Source: Dyadobacter sp. 50-39 (GTDB taxonomy: Bacteria; Bacteroidota; Bacteroidia; Cytophagales; Spirosomataceae). Taken from it: a DNA stretch of 64,000 bases. Made by a program: the position numbers and the translations under genes. The stretch lies in NCBI GenBank assembly GCA_001898145.1, contig MKSR01000029.1, forward strand, positions 186,001 to 250,000. The letters run 5' to 3'. Positions 52,131-58,518 of the stretch are shown piece by piece. Under the pieces are notes generated by a model. The model had not been told where the DNA came from. It saw only the letters and a list, made by a program, of their open reading frames with translations, and made no database searches. Position 1 is the stretch's first letter. Every line of letters starts with the position of its first letter.

Positions 52131-53078
52131 ATGTCCTTTGAAATTTTCAAACAGCAATTCGGCGACCTGACTGAATACGTTATACACGAAACCTCGACTG
52201 AAAACCGCGTAGTGGTGATCCCCGAACTGGGCGGCATCGTACGCCAGCTATCCCTACGCAAAGGGCTCACCCTTTTTTCAGTCCTGAAAACACCTCCCAC
52301 CCCGGCCGCCCTTGTTGCCGACACGAAAAGCGCCAGTGAACTGCTTTTCCCTTTTGCAAGCCGCATACCGGAGGGGAAGTACAAGTTTCTGGGTAAGGAA
52401 TATCAGCTTCGCAAGAACGAAGACGGCGGGCTGAACGCCATTCACGGATTGGTGCGCAAAAACCAGTTTCATATCGACGAGCAGGTCATTCACGCTGATA
52501 ATGCGTCGATCCGATTATCGTATACCATCGACAATGCCGAAGGTTATCCGTTCCAGGTGCATTTTTCGGTGCGGTACACCCTGCATTCCGACGGTCGTTT
52601 CGAGCTGAAATATGAAGCTAAAAACAATGGGCACGCGCCTTGTCCGGCAATGTTCGGCTGGCACCCCTACTGGGTGCTGGGGAATGAGGATGTGGAAGCA
52701 TGGAACATTAACATTCCGTCGAAAAGGCTGGTTACCTTCAATGAAAACCTCATCCCGATCGGTACTGAAGCATTCGATATGGCGATGCCTGCTTTGCTGC
52801 ATAGGAAAGAGTTTGACAATGCCTTTATCGTAGAGAACACCGGCGGCCGCGCGGTTACCGAGCTGATTTCGAAGAACCAGAATGTTACGCTTCGTATTGA
52901 ACAGGAAACGGGGGAAGGGAAGTTCAATTACCTCGTCGTGTATACCCCGCCGGCACGTGACTGCGTAGCCATCGAGGCGCTGACTGCCAATGTGGACGCG
53001 TTCAATACGGGTGAAGGACTAAATATCCTCGCGCCCGGACACAGCATTGACGGCACGATCACGGTGAGCCTTACCTGA
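52131..53078 (+). CDS. Aldose 1-epimerase family protein
   Basis: This 315-residue galactose-mutarotase-like protein interconverts anomers of aldoses. Visible features are FPFASRIPEGKYKF and the strand NAIHGLVRKNQF (catalytic His region), FGWHPYWVLG in the middle and VIEALTANVDAFN at the end. The family is beta-sandwich and cytosolic. Its last 60 bases overlap the 3' end of the nucleotidyltransferase gene on the other strand, which is an unusually long overlap but both frames look real. Confidence 0.88.
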   Translation: MSFEIFKQQFGDLTEYVIHETSTENRVVVIPELGGIVRQLSLRKGLTLFSVLKTPPTPAALVADTKSASELLFPFASRIPEGKYKFLGKEYQLRKNEDGGLNAIHGLVRKNQFHIDEQVIHADNASIRLSYTIDNAEGYPFQVHFSVRYTLHSDGRFELKYEAKNNGHAPCPAMFGWHPYWVLGNEDVEAWNINIPSKRLVTFNENLIPIGTEAFDMAMPALLHRKEFDNAFIVENTGGRAVTELISKNQNVTLRIEQETGEGKFNYLVVYTPPARDCVAIEALTANVDAFNTGEGLNILAPGHSIDGTITVSLT

Positions 53079-54200
53079 GGGGCGGTTCCGGTACCAGCCG
53101 ATTTTGTGCCACAGAAGTTTCCAATGGGTCAGATACCCTATATGTGCCGCGACAATGGAGAGTTTATCCGACCATTTGTCGCGGTATTTTACATTATAAA
53201 GGAAAATACGCCAGGTTTTAGTCTTCAACGAAGGGCGCTCGTTCTCCCAATGAGTGAGTATTTCGTTCAAAAAAGCCTCAGAGGGATAACTTCCGGGTTC
53301 TCCTGCGAGCCCCAGGTAGTCCCTGCCGCTCAGGCAGCTCGCCACGCCGAGCGATTCAAGGAGCAGTTTATGAAACCCCTTTTCCCTGGTTACCCTGCTA
53401 ATGTACGCCCAATCCAGCGAATCGGCAGTCTTATCGAGCAACCTGACGAAGTCGGCAACGTATTTCAGCTTGTCCCATTGCTCGACGCCACCATGATGGA
53501 TCACCATCATGAGGAGCTGAACTTCCATGCAAGGTACCTTCACCGCTTTTCCCATCATGTCGAACTGGACGAGGTTTCCTGCCAGCTCATCCCATTTGAA
53601 ATTATAGCAATACCGCGGGTAGGTGCAGTTCCACTGTATTTCCAATGATTGCAATGCATGCTCCCGCAGCGGCGTGAGAGGAAGCTGATAGTCGGTGTCG
53701 AGGTAATCATTTACGACAGCCTTTTCTTTAAGCAAGTAGTGGCGGTAACTATCGGCGGCGAAGCCTTCGCGGAGGAGAATATCCAGGCTTGGGGTAACAT
53801 CCTCTTTCCCGATAAAAAAATCAATATCGCCAAACTCCCGTGAGGCGGGCTTATCGTAGAACATCCAGGCCCATAATGCACCCTTCATCGGAAAAACGCG
53901 TACTTTATTCTCTATCAGACGATTATATAATCTCACGCATATTCCCAGGAAAGCCATATTGGTAACAGCCTGCCCCAACGCAAATTCCCGAAGCATTTGT
54001 TGAACTTCGGCGGGAAGGCTAATGGCCTTTTCCTGTACGTAGTCAAATGCCAGCGGCCTGATCTGGTGCCAGCTGGCAAGTGCCGAAAATTGACGCGGAT
54101 CAAAAGGTTTCTCCCGGACTGCGAAAGGCTGGCGGCCCGACGGCAGTACCGCTGCCTCGATCAGATATGCCAGTTCACGTGAGATCATGATTTGCTGCAT
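53019..54200 (-). CDS. Nucleotidyltransferase family protein (lasso-cluster type, NTP_transf_5)
   Basis: This 393-residue protein has a nucleotidyltransferase core: KGALWAW at 106-112 and the catalytic-type DID at 125-127 (REFGDIDFFIGKEDV). The size and the following helical region with VIHHGGVEQW match the NTP_transf_5 proteins often found in lasso peptide and related clusters. There they probably modify the peptide or a kinase product, though the reaction is not proven. It begins one base after the kinase gene stop, and the 3' end overlaps galM. It is the last gene of the four-gene operon. Confidence 0.85.
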   Translation of the reverse strand: MQQIMISRELAYLIEAAVLPSGRQPFAVREKPFDPRQFSALASWHQIRPLAFDYVQEKAISLPAEVQQMLREFALGQAVTNMAFLGICVRLYNRLIENKVRVFPMKGALWAWMFYDKPASREFGDIDFFIGKEDVTPSLDILLREGFAADSYRHYLLKEKAVVNDYLDTDYQLPLTPLREHALQSLEIQWNCTYPRYCYNFKWDELAGNLVQFDMMGKAVKVPCMEVQLLMMVIHHGGVEQWDKLKYVADFVRLLDKTADSLDWAYISRVTREKGFHKLLLESLGVASCLSGRDYLGLAGEPGSYPSEAFLNEILTHWENERPSLKTKTWRIFLYNVKYRDKWSDKLSIVAAHIGYLTHWKLLWHKIGWYRNRPSGKAHRDRAVNAVSGREDI

Positions 54201-54201
54201 C

Positions 54202-55119
54202 CTATTCCGTGATTAATGTTTCACGGATATTCGCCTCTACCCATTTTTCCAATTTATCAAACCCTTCGGGCCTCCTTATTCGAAGCAAATCCGCAAACCT
54301 GGCGCATTGAAGACTTTGAAAAAAGTGTCTTTTGAGATTCTCAGTGGTTAAAAGCGCAGTGGGTAATGGAAAATTACGAAGCATTTCTCCCGGCACTTCC
54401 GCCGCATTCATATGCCGGGCGGCCGGTTTGTTTCGGGCCTTATGAAGAAAGAAGACCTTTCTAAGAGGAACCATGCTCTTCGAAAACCGATCCCTTGGCT
54501 GGTAAGCAAACTTATTGATCCCCTCACTGACCGGTTCGAGGCTTGATTGGTCATAATGCAGCCCCTGGACGGTCTTTTCCCATATTTTAAGCTGGGGATA
54601 AGCCGGAATGACAAACGGATTGCCGGATTCATCGAAGGTAATTGCTGTGAGATCGTCGCTCAACAGCCTGCAACCCGCTTTAATGTAAGCTGCCGCCGTA
54701 CTGGATTTTCCGGCTCCCGGCATGCCCATGAAACACCACGCCTCTTCGCCTATTGCTACCGAGCTGGCGTGCAGGAGAAAATATCCTTTTTGGAAGAGGA
54801 TCAAGCCTAAGGCTTCACTCACCGTAAACAGGCTGATAATGTTACTATCCGAAGTCACGGGAGCGACAACCAGCTCATTACCACCCGAAGCCCGGAACAA
54901 CGCCACGCCGGTCCATTGCAGATACATGGCCTGCTGCTCGTCCTGGCCGAAAAACGCGCGGGTACCACGCCGGTAGATCGTAGTTGGCCGCATGTCCGGA
55001 AGCTTTACATCACCCTGTCGGATATAAATGTCGGATGCGGCATGCGGGTCGCCTTCGGATAGTTCAGGCAGGGGGATTTCTGAACGGATATGGAGCCCGA
55101 AGGCGGTGTAATGGTGCAT
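54202..55119 (-). CDS. HPr-kinase-like serine kinase (lasso-cluster type)
   Basis: This 305-residue protein has the HPr kinase/phosphorylase-like core. His117 occurs in LLHASSVAIG, the P-loop GMPGAGKSS is at 132-140, and Asp155-Asp156 in LLSDDLTAI follow. Kinases of this kind in lasso clusters such as the paeninodin cluster phosphorylate the C-terminal Ser of the precursor. The N-terminal 100 residues form an additional domain also seen in those kinases. It lies 21 bases after the B2 stop and one base before the nucleotidyltransferase. The target here is not visible. Confidence 0.87.
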   Translation of the reverse strand: MHHYTAFGLHIRSEIPLPELSEGDPHAASDIYIRQGDVKLPDMRPTTIYRRGTRAFFGQDEQQAMYLQWTGVALFRASGGNELVVAPVTSDSNIISLFTVSEALGLILFQKGYFLLHASSVAIGEEAWCFMGMPGAGKSSTAAAYIKAGCRLLSDDLTAITFDESGNPFVIPAYPQLKIWEKTVQGLHYDQSSLEPVSEGINKFAYQPRDRFSKSMVPLRKVFFLHKARNKPAARHMNAAEVPGEMLRNFPLPTALLTTENLKRHFFQSLQCARFADLLRIRRPEGFDKLEKWVEANIRETLITE

Positions 55120-55140
55120 GTGTGTAATTTAAAATAAAGA

Positions 55141-55581
55141 TCATTCCCAAACCCAAAGCCGTTTGTAGGAAACAGTGTCGGGCCAACGCCCTATAATAAT
55201 GTTGCCATTTTGTTCCACCCAGGCATGCGCTTCGAATTGCTTGGCGGGATTGATTTCGATGCCGATTTCCAGGGTTAATGCCGGAGCATTCCGGAGCAGG
55301 TATTTCGTTGCGAGGGCACGAGGCAGGCATAAAAGCTCAAAAGGCAGCAGATTTGCCGCGGTATCCACTGCCCAAACGGCCCGCTTTACCGATTCGGGCG
55401 GGGTATTCTCTATTCTGCTCGGGCGGCTGGCACGGTGGTACCATTTTCTGAACAGCGGAAACGGAAGCAGCAAAAGCCCGGCCTTGATCCAGATCAGGCA
55501 CCAGCCGGCCCGCAGGAAAATCCGCTTCTCCGGCCCGGATAAATTCCGCCATTTGCCTACCAGCTTGCCGATTTTGCCCAA
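55141..55581 (-). CDS. Lasso peptide biosynthesis B2-type transglutaminase-like protease
   Basis: This 146-residue protein matches the B2 leader peptidase family. Visible motifs are the N-terminal helices, CLPRALATKYLL with the catalytic Cys85, and the histidine motif AHAWVEQNG (His119) near the end. In lasso biosynthesis it cuts the leader off the precursor that B1 presents. It begins 2 bases after the B1 stop. It has no separate RRE, as expected for a split B1/B2 system. Confidence 0.9.
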   Translation of the reverse strand: MGKIGKLVGKWRNLSGPEKRIFLRAGWCLIWIKAGLLLLPFPLFRKWYHRASRPSRIENTPPESVKRAVWAVDTAANLLPFELLCLPRALATKYLLRNAPALTLEIGIEINPAKQFEAHAWVEQNGNIIIGRWPDTVSYKRLWVWE

Positions 55582-55583
55582 AT

Positions 55584-55850
55584 CTATTTGATTATTTCAA
55601 CCAGTCTCTCGGAAACCAAATCCTTCAACAAGCCGTCGATATCGTTCCTGCACGTAGCCGGATCGACATCGTACTCGCTGGTTACCACCTCACACAACGA
55701 ATCGATCGTTTGGGGGCCTTTTTCCAAGGTATCCCAGACCAGCACACCCACCTCGTCCAGACCGTAGTAGGCTCCTTTATTGTGGTTGAGGATCACTGTT
55801 TCCCCCGCAACTTTGGACGAGGTCTGTTCCGATGTAAGCTGGTATTTCAT
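55584..55850 (-). CDS. PqqD-like RiPP recognition element (lasso B1 type)
   Basis: This 88-residue protein starts at the ATG at 55850; a start at 55883 would add residues in front of a normal PqqD-like beginning. It has the winged-helix PqqD pattern: VILNHNKGAYYGLDEVGVLV early and LLKDLVSERLVEII at the end. B1 proteins bind the leader of a precursor peptide and deliver it to B2 and the cyclase. It opens the operon, with a promoter just upstream. Confidence 0.88.
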   Translation of the reverse strand: MKYQLTSEQTSSKVAGETVILNHNKGAYYGLDEVGVLVWDTLEKGPQTIDSLCEVVTSEYDVDPATCRNDIDGLLKDLVSERLVEIIK

Positions 55851-55893
55851 TATTATAATATAATTCCGAAGTATAATGTGCAACCGATTTGTA

Positions 55894-55926
55894 CAAAGTT
55901 AGAAATTTTAATTACTCAATCTCAAA
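55894..55926 (-). promoter_or_regulatory. Promoter of the B1-B2-kinase-nucleotidyltransferase operon
   Basis: On the minus strand TTTG (complement of 55923-55926) is followed after 21 bases by a perfect TAACTTTG (complement of 55894-55901), 43 bases before the B1 ATG. The -33 box lies in the 3' end of the aldehyde dehydrogenase gene, so the operon can be expressed on its own. Confidence 0.65.
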
Positions 55927-57450
55927 CTTTATCCCCTGCGCCAGTGGCAGTGCGGTGCCGTAGTTGATCGTATTGGTTTGACGCCGCATATAGGCTTTCC
56001 AGGCGTCGGAACCCGATTCGCGCCCACCGCCTGTCTCCTTCTCACCGCCAAATGCCCCGCCGATCTCTGCTCCTGACGTTCCGATATTCACGTTCGCGAT
56101 GCCGCAATCCGAGCCGGCGTGCGAGAGAAACCGCTCCGCATCCCGCAGGTCGTTGGTGAATATCGCCGAAGAAAGGCCCTGAGGCACATCGTTTTGCAAT
56201 GCAATGGCTTCTTCCGTGTCGGAATAACGGATCATATACAGGATCGGCGCGAAGGTTTCGTGCTGCACGATGGCGAAATGATTCTCCACTTCCGCAATGC
56301 AGGGCGAAACGTAACAACCGGACGCATATGCATCGCCTTCCGGCACGCCAGGTTCTACCACAAATGTACCTCCGGCTTGCCTGATCTGCTCGGCGGCATT
56401 CTGGTACTGCACGACGGCCTGTTTGTCGATCAAAGGCCCGACATGTATAGCCGGGTCCAATGGGTTACCAATTTTCAACTGGCCATATGCTTTTTTCAAA
56501 AGGCTTTTTACCTCGTCAAATATGGATTCATGAACTATCAAACGGCGCGTCGAGGTGCAACGCTGGCCGGCCGTACCCACAGCGCCGAAAACGATGGCAG
56601 GTATAGCTACTTTCAAGTCAGCGGTGGGCGTAACGATGATGGCATTGTTTCCGCCCAATTCGAGCAGGCTTTTACCGAGTCTCCTGGCCACCGCCTCCCC
56701 TACCGAGCGCCCCATCGGTATGCTTCCGGTAGCCGACACCAATGCGATCCGCGGGTCCTGTGCGAGCCATTCGCCCACTTCGCGGCCACCGGATACAATG
56801 CACGAGACGCCCTCCGGCACATTATTATCTTGCAAAACATCCCTGATGATATGCTGGCAGGCAATGGCCGTCAGCGGCGTTTTTTCGGAGGGCTTCCACA
56901 CGCATGCATTACCGCATACCCAGGCGACCATGGAATTCCAGGACCATACCGCCACCGGGAAATTGAATGCGCTGATAATCCCCACCACACCGAGCGGGTG
57001 CCATTGCTCGTACATGCGGTGCTGCGGGCGTTCGCTATGCATGGTAAGACCGTAAAGTTGCCGCGACAGGCCGGTGGCGAAGTCGCAGATGTCGATCATT
57101 TCTTGGACCTCCCCTAGCCCCTCCTGCAAACTCTTGCCCATTTCATAGCTTACCAAAGTGCCCAGCTCCTGCTTGTATTCGCGCAGCTTTGTACCCATTT
57201 GACGCACAATTTCACCGCGTTTGGGCGCAGGCAAGGTTCGCCAGCTTTTAAATGCAAGCGATGCGGTTTCCACTGCACGGTCATAATCAGCCCTGGCAGC
57301 CTGGCTTACCGCCCCGATCCGCTGGCCGTCGACAGGAGAAAAAGATTCCAGCAATGCACCACCGCCTTCCCAGGCCGACTGACCCGTAGTAACGCCATGG
57401 TTGATTCCCCCTATTCCGAGCTTTTGAAGAATTTCATCTATTCCTTTCAT
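55912..57450 (-). CDS. Aldehyde dehydrogenase, ALDH7 (aminoadipate semialdehyde) type
   Basis: This 512-residue NAD-dependent dehydrogenase has catalytic Cys298 in GQRCTSTRRL, the general base Glu265 in LELGGNNA and Asn163 in AFNFPV. The N-terminal pattern GINHGVTTG and SRQLYGLTMHSERPQHRMYE match the ALDH7 (antiquitin) group, which oxidises 2-aminoadipate-6-semialdehyde in lysine breakdown. A saccharopine-dehydrogenase-like gene lies directly upstream (6 bases), which fits lysine catabolism. Other semialdehyde substrates are possible. The stop is 61 bases from the lasso-type operon start. Confidence 0.88.
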   Translation of the reverse strand: MKGIDEILQKLGIGGINHGVTTGQSAWEGGGALLESFSPVDGQRIGAVSQAARADYDRAVETASLAFKSWRTLPAPKRGEIVRQMGTKLREYKQELGTLVSYEMGKSLQEGLGEVQEMIDICDFATGLSRQLYGLTMHSERPQHRMYEQWHPLGVVGIISAFNFPVAVWSWNSMVAWVCGNACVWKPSEKTPLTAIACQHIIRDVLQDNNVPEGVSCIVSGGREVGEWLAQDPRIALVSATGSIPMGRSVGEAVARRLGKSLLELGGNNAIIVTPTADLKVAIPAIVFGAVGTAGQRCTSTRRLIVHESIFDEVKSLLKKAYGQLKIGNPLDPAIHVGPLIDKQAVVQYQNAAEQIRQAGGTFVVEPGVPEGDAYASGCYVSPCIAEVENHFAIVQHETFAPILYMIRYSDTEEAIALQNDVPQGLSSAIFTNDLRDAERFLSHAGSDCGIANVNIGTSGAEIGGAFGGEKETGGGRESGSDAWKAYMRRQTNTINYGTALPLAQGIKFEIE

Positions 57451-57456
57451 AAATAC

Positions 57457-58518
57457 TCAACCCACATTCTTAAAAAACTGTCCATTCAATGTCTTGAAAA
57501 AATCATCCAGGGCAATGTCTTCCTGCCTGATAAAGCCCGTTCCGGGCAGCACGCCGTCTGCCACCATTTCCACGACCGACGCAATGGAAGCCGCCGTAGT
57601 CCACGAAATGGCCCGCCAGTGCTGGCCGTCGATCTCGATAGGATGATACGCCTGGTAGAATTCCTCCCGTTCGAGGTGGCTGCCTTTCCAGCCTTCTACT
57701 ACTGCATATACATACACCACATCCTGCTGCACGGGCGGTTTCGCTTCGGTGAGGATTTCCTCCACCAATGCGCGCTTGTCTTTCAGGCAAAGCTCATAGA
57801 GCATGAAGCGCATCAGACTGCAATGGCCGGGATAGCGGATGGTCTTGTAGTTCAACGTATCCACCTTGCCTTCCAGCGTTTCGCACATGGTCGCCAAACC
57901 GCCGGAAGTGCTGAATGCCTCGAATTCCTGCCCTTCGATATTGATCAGTTCAATGCCTTCCAGCGAAGGTACCATCTTGCGAACGCCGTTGTGAATGACC
58001 TCCGCGTCGTTCAGGTACTCATTCACCACGCCAGCCGGCGACCAGGTGAATGAATAGCCCATCAAACCATTGGGATAACGCGGCAATGCGCCCACCCGGA
58101 GCTCGATATCCCTGATTTTGGTGAAACGTTTTGCCAGATCCATTCCCACAATGCCTATGAACCCCGGCGCGAGCCCGCATTGCGGGGCAAGCACACTCCG
58201 GCTGTCTTTGGCCATTTCCCGGATAGCGGAAGTGGTAGGAACATCCTCGGTAAGATCGAAATAATGAATGCCTGCCTTGTGCGCACGCTGGGCGATGGGC
58301 AGGTTGAGGTTGTAGGGCATGCAGGATACAACCGCATCAAAACCGGCCAGTACCATGTCCAGAAACGCCCCGTCGTTCACATCTCCTGCCACCACATCGA
58401 AGGGCAGCTGCACGGCAGGTTGTGCTTTGTCGACTCCGGTTACAGTGAACCGTTTGCTCAGTAAAGTGCCCACGAGGGAGCCAACTTTTCCCAGTCCGAT
58501 CACAAGTACTTTTTGCAT
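57457..58518 (-). CDS. Saccharopine dehydrogenase family protein
   Basis: This 353-residue protein has an N-terminal Rossmann fold (KVLVIGLGKVGSLVGTLLS, 3-21), a VVSCMPYNLNLPIAQ segment and QCGLAPGFIGIVGMD, typical of saccharopine reductase/dehydrogenase. The C-terminal domain with SFTWSPAGVVNEYLN and STSGGLATMCETL matches the glutamate-forming saccharopine dehydrogenase. In combination with ALDH7 it should convert saccharopine to aminoadipate semialdehyde in lysine degradation. The lysine-ketoglutarate reductase partner is not in the window. Confidence 0.87.
   Translation of the reverse strand: MQKVLVIGLGKVGSLVGTLLSKRFTVTGVDKAQPAVQLPFDVVAGDVNDGAFLDMVLAGFDAVVSCMPYNLNLPIAQRAHKAGIHYFDLTEDVPTTSAIREMAKDSRSVLAPQCGLAPGFIGIVGMDLAKRFTKIRDIELRVGALPRYPNGLMGYSFTWSPAGVVNEYLNDAEVIHNGVRKMVPSLEGIELINIEGQEFEAFSTSGGLATMCETLEGKVDTLNYKTIRYPGHCSLMRFMLYELCLKDKRALVEEILTEAKPPVQQDVVYVYAVVEGWKGSHLEREEFYQAYHPIEIDGQHWRAISWTTAASIASVVEMVADGVLPGTGFIRQEDIALDDFFKTLNGQFFKNVG

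Follow-up and report, generated by a model that had tools for sequence, protein, structure and literature searches.

The closest described relatives of the system treated here are the lasso peptide clusters of the paeninodin and pseudomycoidin type, which encode a precursor (A), the leader-processing proteins B1 and B2, a cyclase (C), an HprK-like kinase and a nucleotidyltransferase. In these clusters, PadeB1 recognises the leader with nanomolar affinity and hands it on to B2 (PMC5067487), PsmK phosphorylates a C-terminal serine, and PsmN is required, either by itself or via a host enzyme, for the attachment of hexoses to the phosphoserine of pseudomycoidin (PMC9266682). Proteins of the same kinds are found in Dyadobacter, with the difference that the set is divided there over two loci. 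The window analysed here, a stretch of 64,000 nucleotides from Dyadobacter sp. 50-39 (G000:C29:186001-250000 in a genome of 7.7 Mb), carries one of these loci, an operon of four genes that we call B1, B2, K and N. As judged from the genes themselves, their conservation, their co-occurrence and the separation of the two loci in the genome sequences, this operon is very probably the constant half of a paeninodin-like lasso pathway split over two chromosomal sites, which would act in trans on an exchangeable precursor-cyclase pair (A-C).

Two other known systems share features with this arrangement. The core set of the clusters for linear polyphosphorylated peptides (LPP) of Bacillota includes a discrete recognition element (RRE) for ribosomally synthesised and post-translationally modified peptides (RiPPs), a kinase K and a nucleotidyltransferase N, with no cyclase, and deletion of LppN produced no change in its heterologous host (PMC13381572). 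In the case of the lasso peptide citrulassin, a PAD tailoring enzyme is encoded outside the cluster (PMC12971885). The discrete RRE, the HprK-like kinase and the NTP transferase of LPP clusters are also present in Dyadobacter, which differs by having B2 and a remote cyclase in place of an SpI-type peptidase and no cyclase; the citrulassin pathway, for its part, likewise depends on an enzyme from another place in the genome, although a single tailoring enzyme is remote there and the whole leader-processing module is remote in Dyadobacter. By their title alone, the cebulassopins (2026) are reportedly lasso peptides from a split operon and may thus be a precedent for the Dyadobacter split. The family of each protein is already known, as is an NCBI model for the leader. 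On the other hand, a genus-wide division of a lasso pathway into a resident B1-B2-K-N and an exchangeable A-C was not found in the literature searched, which included few subscription papers, and neither was any paper on Dyadobacter lasso peptides or on a shared processing module for lasso peptides; Dyadobacter and lasso are mentioned together in a single paper, which concerns a lipidated MNIO peptide.

The four genes lie on the minus strand of the window and are separated by gaps of only 2, 21 and 1 bases in the order B1-B2-K-N. B1 (55584..55850, 88 aa from ATG) is a PqqD-like RRE that reaches 69.2 bits with PF05402, against a cut-off of 23.4. B2 (55141..55581, 146 aa from TTG) is a lasso leader protease of the Transglut_core3 family (PF13471, 77.1 bits), which scores 88.7 bits with the lasso_biosyn_B2 model NF033537 (cut-off 33) and keeps Cys85 and His119, both invariant in the 53 proteins aligned. 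The HprK-like kinase K (54202..55119, 305 aa) was assigned through its family profile, which is clear, the window protein by itself remaining below curated cut-offs: it matched no Pfam family at E 0.001 and reached E 0.0031 with Hpr_kinase_C, short of the Pfam cut-off. Hpr_kinase_C matches all 27 aligned relatives of K at E up to 0.1 (best 2.9e-8), and the best solved-structure matches of a profile of these relatives are HPr kinases (E 2e-7), in an alignment that spans His117, the P-loop 132-139 and Asp155-Asp156; the histidine, the GxGKS core of the P-loop and both aspartates are invariant in the 27 proteins. The last gene, N (53019..54200, 393 aa), encodes an NTP_transf_5 nucleotidyltransferase-like protein (PF14907, E 2e-46) with a GDID motif at residues 124-127; it had no solved-structure match at E 1, and its five named relatives found, 66-81% identical, are all from Dyadobacter. 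Structure predictions of K and N (six sequences each) gave mean pLDDT values of 39 and 49, and both models were discarded. The set falls short of the cut-offs of the HPr-rel-A system (TIGR04352/TIGR04353), with 35.2 bits versus 200 for the kinase and 25 versus 35 for the PqqD protein.

Upstream of B1, a pattern search detected a promoter-like element, TTTG-N21-TAACTTTG (55894..55926, minus strand), which overlaps the 3′ end of the neighbouring aldehyde dehydrogenase gene (ALDH). The pattern TTTG-N17-23-TAnnTTTG, which we take to be the Bacteroidota-type promoter consensus, precedes B1 in 45 of 52 genomes (shuffled sequences: mean 0.1, maximum 1) and was found upstream of none of the B2 (0/53), K (0/50) or N (0/52) genes. 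Since ALDH and B1 are only 61 bases apart, there is no space between them for a precursor gene, and at the opposite end N and galM overlap tail to tail by 60 bases; neither a cyclase nor a precursor adjoins the operon in the window. A preliminary description of this DNA, made from the window alone, had proposed precisely four tightly coupled genes of these families behind one promoter, flanked by ALDH and galM and with no room for a precursor at B1, and in all these respects it agrees with the present analysis.

The conservation of the operon was followed in 47 further Dyadobacter genomes, 48 with that of the window. The gene order B1-B2-K-N is identical in every one of them, with galM and ftsH always on one side and, in 44, a pair of dehydrogenase genes on the other, ALDH and a saccharopine-dehydrogenase-like gene (SDH); G001, G005, G007 and G022 have neither ALDH nor SDH in the stretch examined. 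B2 is present in the 48 genomes, as a single match in 47 and accompanied in G007 by a weak second one, under the cut-off of the family model. Moreover, ALDH and ftsH also flank B1-B2-K-N in G050 and G058, which represent two further genera of the family, G058 having an additional gene of 358 aa between B2 and K. In eight close pairs, the four genes show ratios of nonsynonymous to synonymous substitution rates (dN/dS) of 0.04-0.19, with three values that could not be computed owing to saturated dS, and the operon is thus under purifying selection. The possibility that it is the relic of a lasso cluster after loss of its cyclase and precursor, for which one could invoke the interrupted K of G013 and the stop before the leader motif in the precursor frame of the same genome (the single case of joint damage at both loci), can hardly be right in view of the order kept in 48 of 48 genomes, the purifying selection and the conserved catalytic residues.

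The genes absent from the window were found on the same contig, 604 kb from the operon, instead of in the one cluster that is usual, though not essential, for lasso pathways. A precursor-profile search of the window genome gave one match, the 51-aa precursor A (G000:C29:845925-846080, MKTLTSHSTQTKKSYRKPVLVLHGDVRKLTKGKLGSLTDLDPSDNHFSTEG), directly upstream of a gene for a lasso-type macrolactam cyclase-like protein, C (G000:C29:846111-848048), the only Asn_synthase open reading frame (ORF) found in that genome. The lasso_leader_L3 model NF033521 recognises A with 25.3 bits (cut-off 19) and, at E up to 1, all but one of the 33 precursors aligned. All 33 follow the leader pattern [Y/W]xxPx[L/V/I/A/F/Y] plus a Thr near the predicted cleavage site, with Y, P, L, G and T invariant, of which the search pattern already required Y, P and a hydrophobic residue and the main pattern did not require G and T. 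A precursor and a C homologue are present in each of the 48 Dyadobacter genomes, the precursor always at most 700 bases upstream of a cyclase-like ORF (50 pairs in all), and the site is bordered by both udk and porU in 45 genomes and by either udk or porU in the remaining three. The operon shares a contig with the main A-C site in 20 genomes, at a distance of 0.56-4.8 Mb; a further site with a YcaO protein and a cyclase in G029 is 0.36 Mb from its B1-B2-K-N. Among 55 cyclase regions (11-16 kb, one of 6 kb), the window B1, B2, K and N had no match at E 1e-4 other than in L175 of G022, a region with matches to B1 and K and an unconfirmed cyclase. Of the two options left by the preliminary description, that of a cyclase and a substrate elsewhere is the one that these data favour, and, as regards its refuting condition of both genes close by, they share the contig of the operon without being near it.

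If C were instead a housekeeping asparagine synthetase, the pathway would have no cyclase, and in favour of this idea C is the sole Asn_synthase ORF found in the window genome, which gave no match to AsnA. Such an assignment is nevertheless very improbable. A lasso precursor lies upstream of C throughout the genus, and the median pairwise identity of C within it is 0.32, versus 0.94 for FtsH. C has the SGGLDS motif and no Cys after the start codon, the position of the glutaminase nucleophile. Its best family is the lasso cyclase model NF033535, with 166.3 bits versus 112 for AsnB (both under the cut-off), and the same model matches the 17 C proteins scanned. Since neither AsnA nor another Asn_synthase was found, asparagine is probably made via tRNA-dependent transamidation in this bacterium.

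The link between the two loci is drawn from their joint distribution. With the window B2 as query, 52 of 99 relatives have both the precursor and B2, one B2 only, none the precursor only and 46 neither; the B2 family model gives 52, 2, 0 and 45, respectively. For the 13 family members outside the genus these figures are 4, 1, 0 and 8. A PqqD match by itself, seen in 56 of 99 genomes, is less specific. Clustered versions also exist in the family: about 4.2 kb of G051 hold A, B1, B2, N and a convergent cyclase, and about 5.2 kb of G284 hold C, A, B1, B2 and K. In G054, precursor and cyclase are about 5 kb apart on one contig, with B1 and B2 on two others. In a sample of the phylum, B2 was detected in 29 of 296 genomes (33 matches), and 13 of 20 B2 regions, taken from 19 of those 29 genomes, contain a cyclase match (one weak, E 7e-9), which indicates that clustering is common and the Dyadobacter arrangement a departure from it. 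The seven regions with no cyclase match, including one truncated at the end of its contig, could be taken in favour of a separate cyclase-free RiPP system like the LPP of Bacillota, the remote A-C being unrelated, and so could the presence of K, N and a discrete RRE with no cyclase, which belong to the LPP core set (PMC13381572), as well as some precursor-like ORFs that lack a cyclase in the stretch fetched. This explanation, also raised in the preliminary description as a distinct system, appears improbable, since LPP clusters use an SpI peptidase and B2 is present here, the sole precursor-profile match of the window genome adjoins a cyclase, a lasso precursor needs B1-B2, of which that genome has one set found, and the cyclase is included in the clustered homologues of the family; across the genomes examined, the precursor, the cyclase and B2 accompany one another.

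A split pathway of this kind would join a processing module that stays in place to a precursor-cyclase site that changes. Among 78 species pairs with a mean identity of flanking proteins above 0.93, C is less than 0.45 identical in 58, and the median identities over the 78 pairs are 0.34 for C, 0.79 for K and 0.86 for B1. In G004-G030, one of the eight close pairs, dS is 0.37 for C and 1.25 for B1, with 1.7-2.7 (near saturation) for galM, ALDH, B2, K and N, and the low value of C suggests a recent exchange of the A-C unit. The clearest case of one hub with several substrates is G027, which has four precursor matches, three of them paired with a cyclase and accounting for every cyclase of the genome, alongside a single B2 and a single PqqD. 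A second candidate of this sort, G058, was dropped because the family model shows a second B2: the genome has eight precursor matches, three of whose regions contain a cyclase, six cyclase-like ORFs, two PqqD and two B2, the second B2 (C4:60707) being a neighbour of the second PqqD (C4:60383), with a cyclase-like ORF at most 10 kb away. Further second PqqD matches were observed at G007:C1:412821-413350, next to the weak second B2 of that genome, at G012:C1:6446016 (under the cut-off) and at G022:C2:2632616, in L175 together with a K match, in addition to G058:C4:51458-61060. Tools that examine only gene neighbourhoods would judge both halves of such a pathway incomplete, so that split pathways are likely undercounted. 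Moreover, a processing module that stays constant, combined with a precursor-cyclase site that can be exchanged, would be a natural counterpart of what engineers aim for, and the tolerance of B1-B2 and of the tailoring enzymes for new cores becomes a directly testable question.

By analogy with relatives already characterised, the steps of leader binding, cleavage and ring closure, together with threading and phosphorylation, may be pictured as follows. B1 would bind the YxxPxL leader of A, and with the leader so held, K, perhaps N too, would modify the core; B2 would then cut one residue after the conserved Thr, leaving it at position -2 as in other lasso peptides, and C would link the first core residue to Asp 8, closing an 8-residue ring. 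The acceptor Asp or Glu of lasso peptides lies at core position 7-9, and when this cleavage site is assumed, such a residue falls in that range in 49 of 50 cores and at position 10 in the core of G031. The predicted core of the window genome is GKLGSLTDLDPSDNHFSTEG, which ends in Gly and would form the ring GKLGSLTD followed by a 12-residue tail. A Gly-Ser pair, not part of the precursor search pattern, occurs in the 50 cores, starting at position 3, 4 or 5 and within the predicted ring. In paeninodin the kinase acts on a C-terminal Ser, whereas only 9 of the 50 Dyadobacter cores end in Ser, and for this reason we propose the serine of the invariant Gly-Ser as the leading candidate target of K; if true, the modified site would be distinct from that of paeninodin.

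Covariation of the operon genes with the core and the cyclase was evaluated twice, first over 17 pairs with a species measure that included galM, biasing the galM control downwards, and then within clades over 14 gene-trait pairs in three settings. The similarity of N followed that of the core after removal of species similarity (r 0.24, p 0.005), within-clade permutations gave p 0.0025, 0.0025 and 0.005 in the three settings, and correction for 14 tests gave 0.035-0.07. Only N-core and N-C held p <=0.0125 in every setting, and the N-C signal was set aside because the control ALDH-C gave r 0.18 with p 0.0125, 0.067 and 0.0025. For the SDH controls, p was 0.30, 0.14 and 0.0075 with C and 0.44, 0.46 and 0.025 with the core. 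The covariation of N with the core is modest and comes from one of many tests, yet it would be expected if N acts on the core. Regarding the pairs with the cyclase, B2-C gave p 0.01 at first and then 0.062, 0.27 and 0.022, and K-C 0.18 followed by 0.037, 0.015 and 0.10.

Several results weigh against an operon acting in trans on the remote A-C. B1 and B2 had been expected to co-vary with the precursor, and this was not borne out, either for B1-core (r 0.12, p 0.055, then r 0.017, p 0.46-0.99) or for B2-core, which was not robust (p 0.025 first, then 0.43, 0.85 and 0.042); B1 does not co-vary with the cyclase nor K with the core, and the signals of N-C and K-C do not stand out from that of ALDH-C. 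Curated models are also not fully satisfied, as B1 reaches 62.1 bits with the lasso PqqD model NF033536, under its cut-off of 80, and C stays far under the cut-off of NF033535, 525 bits, although this model is of the kind 'exception', for which missing the cut-off bars the narrow model only. The co-occurrence comes mostly from one genus and so reflects few independent events. B2 and a cyclase-like ORF are present in two genomes, G093 and G056, that gave no match to this precursor profile; G093 carries its own divergent B1-B2-K-N-C cluster (L250), and the profile therefore probably misses its substrate. In addition, no cyclase lies in the stretch fetched around five of the eight precursor-like ORFs of G058 and one of the four of G027, so that not all of them need become lassos. 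Finally, G011 and G003 have similar cores and different types of N.

These types are two divergent forms of N, in 35 and 13 Dyadobacter genomes, with 26-35% identity between them; the window N is of type 1. They alternate at the same site among close relatives, as in G011, whose flanking proteins are 91-99% identical to those of the window. The GGSFD cores (G009, G014 and G035) all go with a type 2 N, and G011 combines a type 2 N with a core resembling those of type 1 genomes, so there is no simple map of N type onto core class. A wider proposal, in which B1-B2-K-N would be a general resident hub for processing and phospho-tailoring, acting in trans on lasso precursors with swappable cyclases, on YcaO-cyclase modules and on cyclase-less precursors, with K modifying the ring Gly-Ser and the N types matched to remote core classes, seems to us rather doubtful, and slightly more so in view of the second B2 of G058.

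Upstream of the operon, ALDH (55912-57450) is an L-piperidine-6-carboxylate dehydrogenase (NF050084, 834 bits versus a cut-off of 730), and it is followed by SDH (57457-58518), judged by eye as a saccharopine-dehydrogenase-like protein; both neighbours probably serve lysine breakdown and have no relation to the operon. Elsewhere in the genomes examined, two cysteine-containing proteins inside lasso gene sets, L087:8234-9310 (358 aa, G058) and L240:8275-9336 (353 aa, G284), have N-termini alike by eye and no Pfam match at E 0.01, and are candidates for an extra modification enzyme. Two precursor-like ORFs with no cyclase in the stretch fetched (L187:4975-5121 and L196:5075-5230) adjoin secreted Asn/Gln-repeat proteins, curli-like by eye. 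In three further loci (L173:2556-6596, L174:2569-6611 and L191:4968-9081), lasso-type precursors ending in Cys precede genes for a YcaO protein (PF02624, E 1e-68 to 9e-72) and a cyclase-like protein, and these Cys-ending precursor loci of G029, G022 and G058 are possible YcaO-lasso hybrid clusters.

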